Shown piece by piece: positions 17,473-21,375 of a DNA stretch of 64,000 nucleotides. A program made the translations under genes and the position numbers. Numbering within the stretch: the stretch's first letter is position 1; each line of letters starts with the position of its first letter. This stretch comes from Stenotrophomonas daejeonensis (lineage in GTDB: Bacteria; Pseudomonadota; Gammaproteobacteria; Xanthomonadales; Xanthomonadaceae). The notes under the pieces were generated by a model that saw only the letters and a list, made by a program, of their open reading frames with translations, searched no databases and had not been told where the DNA came from. The stretch is taken from the NCBI RefSeq assembly GCF_001431505.1, contig NZ_LDJP01000059.1, positions 1 through 64,000 of the forward strand, in the 5' to 3' direction.

Positions 17473-17625
17473 GCCTGCCGCGCTGCAGGTGGTTTTCATG
17501 GTGTTCGGCGGTGGGTTGGCGGTCAGGCTCCTGTCCGCATGCCCGCTATCATTTCGGCCTTGATGCCGGGGAACGGACGGCCCGCCGTGAGGGACGGTTC
17601 ACCGCGCAGGAGTCAATGCGTACCA

Positions 17626-18945
17626 ATGAGTCTGCTCCCGCCACCGCCCATTGTTCCCGACGCCCCCGGCCGGCGTTGGCGGCTGCTGCACCTGATCGCG
17701 ACATCGGCGCTGTTCCTGTTGCCGGCCCTCGTGCTCAGCCTGCCCGCGAACCTGCTGCCGTTCGGCCTGCTGCTGGTGGTCACCAGCCTGTTCGGGATCG
17801 ACTACCTGTGGCATGCCCGCCTGCCGGTGAAACCCGTCGTGCGCCTGCTGCTGGGGTTGGCGGTGGTGGTCGTGGCGCTGGGCATGGTGTCGGCCTGGGG
17901 CAGTGACCGCTCCGTGCGCGAGGTGGACAAGGTCTCCCGCTTCCTGGTCATGCCGTGGGCGGCGCTGTGGGTATGTGCGTTGCGACCATCCAGGCAGGCC
18001 TTGTGGTGGGGAGCGTGGGCAGGGTTGTTCGCCACACTGGCGATAGCGGTGGCCCAGGTGGCCGGTGGCCAGGCGCGTGCCGAGGCGTGGACCAATGCCA
18101 TCGTGCTGGCCGACGTCTCGCTGGTGCTGATGGTCCTGCTGGTGTTCTGCCGCGCGCCCGGCCGTTGGGGCTGGATCGTGACCGGCATGGCCGCAGGAGG
18201 CTGCGTGATCCTGCTCAGCGGCAGCCGTGGCGCATGGCCGGCGATGCTGGCGTTGCTGCTGGCGCTGGTGTTTTCGTTGCGCTGGGGCCGCGGGCACGTC
18301 CGCCTGGCGATGCTGTCGGGCCTGGTGCTGGCCGTCGCCGTGCTGTTGCTGGCGGTACCCGGGTTGCGCGAGCAGACCCGGCTGGACGAGTTGCACAGCG
18401 ATGTCCAGCGGCTGGAACGGGGAGACATGAATTCCTCGGCCGGTGCCCGCCTGGAACTGCTGAACGTGGCCTGGGATACCTTCCGCGAACGGCCGTGGAC
18501 CGGGATCGGCATTGGCCATTTCGACAAGGCCATGCAGCGCCTGCCCGATTGCATGCGGCGGGTGAGCGGAAGCGAATCACGCTGCCATCTGGGGCATGCC
18601 CACAATGATGTCGCCGAGTGGGCGTCCACCCAGGGCATCCCCGGCCTGCTGTTGCTGCTGGCGGTGTATGGCCTGCCGTTGTGGCTGTTCGTCCGCCTGC
18701 ACCGGCGCAGCGGCGAGGACGGCTTCCGTGGCCCGGCCGCGGCCGGGGTGATGCTGGTGGTCGCCTATGCGCTGTGCGGCCTGACCCAGTCGATGTTCGC
18801 CCACCAGATCACCACGGCCACGTACGCCACGCTGGTGGGGGTGTTGTGCGGCCTGTCGCTGGTCGAGGCCGCCGGGCGCAGGCTCAGGACTGAGTGCGCG
18901 GCGGGTCGGCCAGGGGCTGCCCGTTCTGCAGCAACCACAGCATGA
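17626..18945 (+). CDS. O-antigen ligase / polymerase family membrane protein
   Basis: The 439-residue product has about ten to twelve hydrophobic segments and the Wzy_C/WaaL loop: GARLELLNVAWDTFRERPWTGIGIGHF followed by CHLGHAHNDVAEWASTQGI, with the conserved HxHND-type histidines used by ligases of lipid-linked glycans. It may attach O-antigen to the lipid A core or polymerise a surface glycan. The start is a choice: caggag lies 13 bases upstream of the ATG, slightly far. The last 20 codons overlap the 3' end of the convergent glycosyltransferase gene. Confidence 0.8.
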   Translation: MSLLPPPPIVPDAPGRRWRLLHLIATSALFLLPALVLSLPANLLPFGLLLVVTSLFGIDYLWHARLPVKPVVRLLLGLAVVVVALGMVSAWGSDRSVREVDKVSRFLVMPWAALWVCALRPSRQALWWGAWAGLFATLAIAVAQVAGGQARAEAWTNAIVLADVSLVLMVLLVFCRAPGRWGWIVTGMAAGGCVILLSGSRGAWPAMLALLLALVFSLRWGRGHVRLAMLSGLVLAVAVLLLAVPGLREQTRLDELHSDVQRLERGDMNSSAGARLELLNVAWDTFRERPWTGIGIGHFDKAMQRLPDCMRRVSGSESRCHLGHAHNDVAEWASTQGIPGLLLLLAVYGLPLWLFVRLHRRSGEDGFRGPAAAGVMLVVAYALCGLTQSMFAHQITTATYATLVGVLCGLSLVEAAGRRLRTECAAGRPGAARSAATTA

Positions 18946-19678: not shown

Positions 19679-19856
19679 GTCGATGGCGAAGCGGGGGCAT
19701 GTCGGGAGGGCGGAGGCATACTAGCGCCGTCTCATGTCGATGTCTGTGTACGAACGCTGTACTCTTGCGTGCTTTCCTTGCGGAAGGTGGAATGTCGCGT
19801 GCTTCCACAGGGCCCGGCGGTTGGTCAGCGGGGTGCCGGAACAATGGGAACCGGAA

Positions 19857-20876
19857 ATGCTCAATCGACCACGCCGCTACCTTTTCTTCGTCGAACTCGA
19901 CTACAGCTTCGAAATCCTGCGACCATTGCAGCAGGCCGCCCGGGCGCGTGGGTGTGAAGTAGCTTGGTTCCTCAATGGACCTGCCCCAGAGTATCTTTCC
20001 GAGGACGAATCCCTGCTGAAAACCGTGTCCGAAGTGCGGACATTCGCACCGGATGCCGTATTCGTGCCCGGCAATGAAGTGCCATTGTCGTTCCCGGGAT
20101 TGAAGGTGCAGGTCTTTCATGGCTTGGGCATAGAAAAGAAAGGGCACTTCCGCATCAGGGGCATGTTCGATCTTTTTTGTACTTTTGGACCTTCCACGAC
20201 TGGGCCCTTCAAACAGCTTGCTGTAAAGCATGGCTGGTTCAAGGTCGAAGAAACCGGTTGGCCGAAGATGGATCCATTGTTTGCAGCCGATGCCGAGGCC
20301 CGAACCGATGGCGTGAAGACAGTCCTCTATGCGCCGACGTTCAGCCCGGCACTGACATCAGCCCCGGCCTTGGCAGACGAGATAGCAAGAATTGCCAGAG
20401 AACGTGACTGGCACTGGATCGTCAAGTTCCATCCGAAAATGGAAGAGCGCTTCGCCGCGCCCATCCGGGCGATCGCCGCACCCAATTTCGAGGTGGTGGA
20501 AGAGGCGAGGATGCTGCCATTGTTGCGCTTGGCCGATGTGATGTTGACGGATACATCGTCGGCCGCGGCGGAGTTCATGCTTGCGGGAAAACCGGTTGTG
20601 ACCTATCGCAATCGGGCTCCCGGTCCGCACCTGATCAACATCGTCCGTGTGGAAGAACTGGAGGGCGCTCTGGATATGGCTATGCGGGGCGAGGATCCCG
20701 CACGTCATGCGCGCGGGCGTTATGCGGAAGAAATGCACCCTTGGAACGATGGCCGTTCCAGCGAGCGGGTGTTGGACGCGGTGGAGAACATGCTGATCAA
20801 TGGGCGCGCAGGGCTGGGGCGCAAGCCGCTGAACCTGTTGCGGCGTTTCAAGTACTGGCGCGTACTTCCGCGCTGA
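19857..20876 (+). CDS. CDP-glycerol glycerophosphotransferase family protein
   Basis: The 339-residue product matches the TagB/TagF catalytic domain that polymerises or attaches glycerol phosphate from CDP-glycerol. Visible signatures: the first catalytic-type His in VFHGLGIEKKGHF (about 91-103), the second in IVKFHPKME (about 195), and the substrate loop VMLTDTSSAAAEFMLAGKPV (about 230). Length is that of TagB-like single-domain enzymes. Base composition is plainly lower in GC than in neighbouring genes, with runs such as cttttttgtacttttgg, pointing to transfer. It is followed 16 bases later by a glycerol-3-phosphate cytidylyltransferase gene, which would supply its donor. An upstream in-frame ATG exists, but MLNRPRRYLFFVELDY is the likely N-terminus. 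Confidence 0.85.
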   Translation: MLNRPRRYLFFVELDYSFEILRPLQQAARARGCEVAWFLNGPAPEYLSEDESLLKTVSEVRTFAPDAVFVPGNEVPLSFPGLKVQVFHGLGIEKKGHFRIRGMFDLFCTFGPSTTGPFKQLAVKHGWFKVEETGWPKMDPLFAADAEARTDGVKTVLYAPTFSPALTSAPALADEIARIARERDWHWIVKFHPKMEERFAAPIRAIAAPNFEVVEEARMLPLLRLADVMLTDTSSAAAEFMLAGKPVVTYRNRAPGPHLINIVRVEELEGALDMAMRGEDPARHARGRYAEEMHPWNDGRSSERVLDAVENMLINGRAGLGRKPLNLLRRFKYWRVLPR

Positions 20877-20892
20877 TCGTGGGTGACATGCA

Positions 20893-21375
20893 ATGGAAAC
20901 TGCTGTTGGCGACCGGGACAGGGTGGTACTGACCTATGGCACGTTCGATCTGCTGCACGTGGGACATTTGAACCTGCTGGAGCGGTTGAAGGCACTGGGA
21001 GACCGCCTGGTGGTCGGGGTGTCGACGGACGAATTCAATGCCGGCAAAGGGAAGCGGACAATCATTCCATTCCCCGACCGGCTTCGTCTGGTGCAGAGCA
21101 TGAAATGCGTCGATCTGGCCATTCCCGAAAGCTCATGGGAACAGAAGGTGGCGGACATCCGCCACCATGGGGTTTCCGTGTTTGGGATGGGCGCTGATTG
21201 GGCGGGCAGGTTCGATGACTTGAAGCAATATTGCGAGGTGGTGTATCTGCCGCGTACGGAAGACATCTCCAGCACCCATTTGAAACAGGCGCTGCGGGTA
21301 CTGGGGAAGGAGCACATCGGCGAACTGCGTCAGGCGCTGGGGATCATTTCCTCCATCGTCGATCAGTTCGAATAA
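20893..21375 (+). CDS. Glycerol-3-phosphate cytidylyltransferase (TagD-like)
   Basis: This 160-residue nucleotidyltransferase would make CDP-glycerol from CTP and glycerol-3-phosphate. It has the YGTFDLLHVGHLNLL signature with HVGH at residues 22-25 and the second CTP-binding motif ISSTHLK near 125. The length is slightly above TagD (about 130) because of an extra helical C-terminus (GKEHIGELRQALGIISSIVD). It lies in the same likely operon as the glycerophosphotransferase gene, so the pair is a self-contained donor-and-transferase module. Related family members act on other alcohol phosphates, so the substrate is inferred from context. Confidence 0.86.
   Translation: METAVGDRDRVVLTYGTFDLLHVGHLNLLERLKALGDRLVVGVSTDEFNAGKGKRTIIPFPDRLRLVQSMKCVDLAIPESSWEQKVADIRHHGVSVFGMGADWAGRFDDLKQYCEVVYLPRTEDISSTHLKQALRVLGKEHIGELRQALGIISSIVDQFE

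Follow-up and report, generated by a model that had tools for sequence, protein, structure and literature searches.

A TagB/TagF-like transferase and a TagD-like cytidylyltransferase, proteins typical of Gram-positive wall teichoic acid synthesis, are encoded next to lipopolysaccharide (LPS) genes in the Gram-negative bacterium Stenotrophomonas daejeonensis. What does such a pair do at this locus, and from where was it acquired? The pair was studied in a DNA stretch of 64,000 nucleotides (the window; contig C80 of a 3.28 Mb genome). CDP-glycerol pathways of Gram-negative bacteria are well documented in capsule synthesis (PMC8262930, PMC5974469), and O-antigens have been put forward as a further case (PMC4869667). 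In the open-access literature on CDP-glycerol and the LPS core, no description was found of this gene pair. The pair probably represents a cassette at a conserved slot for the CDP-glycerol-dependent addition of glycerol phosphate to the LPS core. The donor, the LPS acceptor, the addition of single rather than multiple glycerol phosphates and the timing of the reaction are what we infer within this reading.

The gene pair and its neighbourhood

The TagB/TagF-like GT-B phosphotransferase (339 aa; 19857..20876, + strand) scores 57.6 bits against PF04464, for which the cut-off is 22.1. The gene for the TagD-like CTP:glycerol-3-phosphate cytidylyltransferase (160 aa; 20893..21375, + strand) follows after 16 bp. 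On one side the pair is flanked by a core-type (WaaE-like) GT2 glycosyltransferase gene (PF00535; 18884..19678, - strand), which is divergent from tagB, and by a gene for an O-antigen-ligase-like membrane protein of the Wzy_C type (PF04932, 80.6 bits; 17626..18945, + strand), for which an alternative in-frame start is possible at 17539. The intergenic region between GT2 and tagB (19679..19856) is presumed from the gene layout to hold the promoters. Two genes of the bacterial PH-domain type lie on the other side. The adjacency of the two genes and the nature of their neighbours are thus as the first-pass annotation had described them. Among the genes neighbouring the pair, no TagO/TagA linkage-unit genes or TagGH export genes were noticed.

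Base composition was compared with that of 39 window genes (mean GC 0.701, mean GC3 0.913). Both tagB-like (GC 0.583, z -4.3; GC3 0.668, z -7.2) and tagD-like (GC 0.576, z -4.6; GC3 0.720, z -5.7) are outliers, and neither GT2 nor the ligase gene deviates in GC. The lower GC from which transfer had been proposed is therefore real, with z about -4.5 for both genes.

The closest structures to the TagD-like protein in the PDB are two glycerol-3-phosphate cytidylyltransferases (GCT), 1coz of B. subtilis (E 5e-42) and 2b7l (E 2e-38). The alignment with 1coz covers residues 11-134, and the HVGH (HxGH) and RTEDISST catalytic motifs are aligned. The protein shares with TagD/TarD the cytidylyltransferase family, HxGH, the RTExIS[ST]T-like loop and the core length, but it differs from them in a C-terminal extension of ~25 residues, in a lysine in place of B. 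subtilis TagD R63 and in its location at a Gram-negative LPS locus. Its TIGR01518 score is 150 bits, below the curated equivalog cut-off of 165.4, and hence it is named here TagD-like and not certified as TagD; the same cut-off is missed by most of the TagD-linked marine homologues. Judged from these similarities, its product is probably CDP-glycerol.

A conserved slot and the descent of the pair

A strong TagB-like homologue was detected in 70 of 149 sampled genomes of the family, and the relatives are 38-46% identical to the window protein. In the stretches around 40 relatives the gene adjoins PH-domain, lpxL, dtd and rpoD genes in 32 cases, and the other flank usually consists of GT2 and rsmB, matching the window. 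The slot thus has the order rsmB-...-GT2-tagB-bPH-bPH-lpxL-dtd-rpoD, conserved in the family, and a GT2 homologue of 66-90% identity stands beside tagB in many of the syntenic loci. None of the 40 stretches contains a tagD, and in 61 of the 70 genomes no TagD-grade protein is encoded anywhere, which argues that the usual occupant of the slot works independently of TagD-made CDP-glycerol. What is unusual in the window is the allele and the adjoining TagD, and not the presence of a TagB-like gene at this slot.

Among the family relatives examined, the same pair was found at the slot only in Pseudoxanthomonas sangjuensis, which is syntenic with the window gene by gene (TagB 74% and TagD 79% identical). 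In that species a membrane sulfatase-family gene (PF00884, LtaS/EptA-like; L115:7637-9274), absent from the window, lies directly after tagB-tagD. In another genome (G109, L204:6864-8434) the rsmB-lpxL slot holds a different PF04464 protein (23.7 bits) together with its own TagD, and this arrangement suggests that a glycerol-phosphate-type module entered the slot a second time, independently. Several relatives also carry a PMT/ArnT-like gene at the slot.

In a tree of 127 TagB-like proteins, those of the other Xanthomonadaceae form two groups. The TagB of the window and that of P. sangjuensis fall outside both, among proteins of marine Gammaproteobacteria and others. AU tests on a careful tree of 47 rows rejected the joining of these two proteins with either resident clade, A (p 0.0005) or B (p 2e-6), and of all three together (p 2e-8). 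From these rejections, an incoming allele seems to have replaced the former occupant of the slot; the window TagB is foreign and does not descend vertically from the resident genes of the slot. For TagB, the proposed transfer is now backed by the tree and the AU tests besides GC.

The TagD-like protein descends differently. In the tree it falls with TagDs from exopolysaccharide (EPS) and O-antigen loci of Xanthomonadaceae, its exact place among them not being settled. A branch with support 97/85 parts it from the marine TagDs that neighbour TagB-like genes, and on this ground the idea that TagB came in together with a marine TagD was rejected. With the window TagD placed among the Xanthomonadaceae, such pairs probably arose repeatedly, the TagB-like and TagD genes having been brought together more than once, and a repeated pairing supports a functional link between them. 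An origin from Gram-positive wall teichoic acid genes, should the first-pass annotation have meant one, is rejected, since the near relatives retrieved for each protein come from Gram-negative bacteria: the nearest relatives of TagB are proteins of LPS loci, and the nearest TagDs belong to O-antigen, EPS and flagellar islands of Xanthomonadaceae. What stands of the original description is a CDP-glycerol-type pair, acquired by transfer, at a surface-glycan locus.

Catalytic residues of the TagB-like protein and their link to TagD

A single-sequence phmmer search with the window TagB returned no PDB entry, and matches were obtained only with a profile. The predicted model of the protein (pLDDT 94.6) was compared with known structures. 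It matches TagF with VIA Z 21.6 over 303 residues and UDP-GlcNAc 2-epimerases with Z 21.4. With scores so alike the fold does not decide the donor, and structure comparison was set aside as a donor test.

Residues were more informative. H88 and H192 are the equivalents of TagF H444 and H584, given as catalytic in PMC5974469, and are invariant in 118 relatives. (PDB entry 3l7m carries H548A in its title, yet its chain differs from the wild type at H584, the published residue.) The window protein also has the motif APTF, with P160, and KFHPK, in which K190 stands two residues before H192. TagF, TarL and Cps3D likewise have APT, and in each of them the residue two positions ahead of the second histidine is basic (R, K and R, respectively). 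The protein thus resembles TagB/TagF/TarL (PF04464; 3l7i, 8va1) in the GT-B fold, both catalytic histidines, APT and the basic residue. It differs from them in being a single short domain of 12-18% identity, and in that the expected acceptor is LPS and not an undecaprenyl-linked one.

P160 and K190 are concordant in 117 of the 118 sequences. When a score of at least 100 bits was taken as presence of TagD, the genome encodes one for 30 of 35 rows with K190 and for 12 of 83 rows without it; a TagD within 800 bp is seen for 26/35 and 1/83, respectively. The Fisher p values for the association are tiny, but the rows cannot be counted as independent. In the careful 47-row tree the K-type proteins form a single clade (94/96), so that only one or two independent contrasts underlie the link between residue and TagD, and with so few a test by independent pairs has no power. 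The TagD-less relatives show STF with T/N/Q-x-H, in the case of the Xanthomonadaceae STF with T-x-H, and probably use another donor. An LPS-core slot with interchangeable TagB-like alleles, and a two-residue split between TagD-linked and TagD-less forms, appear to be new, as no description of either was found in the open-access literature.

Two alternative readings concern the donor. The cytidylyltransferase could act on another phosphate, such as that of ethanolamine, another polyol or heptose. Its score under the curated GCT cut-off would allow this, and ethanolamine-phosphate and heptose enzymes belong to the same fold family; the top matches, however, are by far GCTs (E 5e-42 vs 7e-18 for the ethanolamine enzyme), and W82, D102 and the RTEDISST loop line up with TagD, making a different substrate highly improbable. 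It is somewhat less far-fetched, but still distinctly unlikely, that the TagB-like protein takes a sugar-1-phosphate from a UDP-hexose or UDP-hexuronate, or is a plain glycosyltransferase, with TagD coincidental or feeding another module. Its TagD-less relatives, with their 61 TagD-free genomes, probably work in such a way; the fold ties with UDP-sugar enzymes, and hexose-phosphate transfer by the TagF-like fold is known (PMC8262930, PMC5974469). Against this, the window protein has the APTF and K-x-H of the TagD-linked clade and not the STF/T of the TagD-less clades, the two genes are 16 bp apart, similar in composition and paired in a second species, and the flagellar and pilin modules of the genome have TagDs of their own. 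A phosphoglycerate enzyme like CpgD was also considered and rejected, the CpgD family being reported to have no homology to TagD.

The LPS core as probable acceptor

The proposal that LPS is the target is well supported by the conserved synteny, by the neighbours of the marine pairs and by genetic data on a syntenic locus of Xanthomonas. In seven marine loci (L125, L133, L135, L136, L144, L145, L146) waaA and/or kdkA stand beside a K-type TagD-TagB pair. In X. hortorum, XHV734_4495-4497, which encode a glycerophosphotransferase-like protein, a core glycosyltransferase and an O-antigen-ligase-like protein, are needed for infection by an LPS-dependent phage, with Tn-seq log2 fold changes near 9 (PMC12573098). 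The trio has a gene order identical to that of the slot in the relatives, the orthology being drawn from synteny and annotation and not from sequence. The XHV734 gene is annotated as CDP-glycerol glycerophosphotransferase, but most relatives at the slot are of the TagD-less STF/T types and probably use another donor. The LOS core of Colwellia psychrerythraea 34H carries phosphoglycerol (PMC8914368), and a K-type TagD-TagB pair is present in Colwellia genomes, including C. psychrerythraea ND2E. The likeness lies in glycerol phosphate on an LPS core; the strains bearing the pair are other than 34H, and the Colwellia pair adjoins Wzi-like and leu genes, not waaA.

Instead, the pair could build a short poly(glycerol phosphate), or its glycerol phosphate could go to a different surface glycan, either exopolysaccharide or the repeat of an O-antigen. 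TagDs of Xanthomonadaceae do occur elsewhere in O-antigen, EPS, flagellar and pilin loci, and glycerol phosphate on O-antigens is known, for example with the tagD of the Hafnia alvei cluster (PMC4869667). The slot, on the other hand, is a locus of core and ligase genes that is kept throughout the family, the K-type marine pairs accompany waaA/kdkA, and the TagB-like protein consists of one short domain and lacks the additional domains that TagF-like polymerases have; these alternatives are thus considered unlikely, less so than a different donor. Cps3D and Cps7D (PMC5974469, PMC8262930) provide a parallel for CDP-glycerol-dependent transfer of glycerol phosphate in Gram-negative bacteria with a TagD-type supplier, but they are multidomain capsule polymerases, whereas the window protein is one domain at a core locus.

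For glycerol phosphate addition to the LPS core, the following scheme can be proposed. The TagD-like enzyme would convert CTP and sn-glycerol-3-phosphate to CDP-glycerol, from which the TagB-like protein would transfer one glycerol phosphate to a lipid A-core sugar with release of CMP, H88 and H192 serving the transfer as a TagF-type His pair. The transfer would probably take place on the cytosolic side of the inner membrane, ahead of LPS export, and the neighbouring GT2 and ligase would act in core building and O-antigen attachment. The cassette would have taken the place of the TagD-less TagB-like gene that the relatives kept.

The cores of Xanthomonas carry galacturonyl phosphate, and a 2019 review found little evidence of how such core structures arise and speculated on a lipid-linked route (PMC8042644). 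As TagF-like domains can transfer hexose phosphate, the TagD-less members may be sugar-1-phosphate transferases. A wider model is offered tentatively, with the balance of probability against it: most TagB-like proteins at the Xanthomonadaceae slot, those of the type carrying the CDP-glycerol glycerophosphotransferase annotation in Xanthomonas, would not use CDP-glycerol but transfer sugar-1-phosphate from a UDP-sugar, in xanthomonads perhaps giving the core galacturonyl phosphate, and the window lineage would have swapped to glycerol phosphate with a K-type allele and a local TagD, so that one LPS position takes interchangeable phosphodiesters. For the xanthomonads, an ArnT-like route that works on a phosphate installed by kdkA is just as possible. 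If the donor does differ in this way, two residues together with the presence of TagD would be enough to predict how an LPS core is decorated with phosphate, and the donor given by a widespread annotation in relatives of plant pathogens would be incorrect. The identity of the enzyme that attaches galacturonyl phosphate in Xanthomonas also becomes a testable question. As the syntenic Xanthomonas gene decides phage susceptibility, the donor matters for phage receptors.

Three further loci of the same genome were observed. A flagellar glycosylation-type island (C24, L080:8640-17767), located between flagellin/rpoN and fli genes, has its own TagD (55% to that of the window) and a TPR-TagF-GT-B protein of 1274 aa which is the close relative of the capsule polymerase Cps3D (E 1.6e-74). 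Its gene content suggests a glycerol-phosphate-containing flagellar glycan, and similar islands are present in G010, G044 and G104. By pilin genes (C33, L082:7607-13667), a third TagD, another PF04464 transferase, a LicD-like protein and an ABC transporter are encoded, possibly for a glycerol-phosphate pilin glycan; G087 has a locus similar to this type IV pilin locus. An O-antigen cluster (C95, L083:9828-17186) encodes a PEP mutase-cytidylyltransferase fusion, a phosphonopyruvate-decarboxylase-like enzyme, an Fe-alcohol dehydrogenase and a PF04464/LicD protein of 1206 aa, and looks like a locus for decoration of the O-antigen from a CMP-phosphonate, perhaps hydroxyethylphosphonate.
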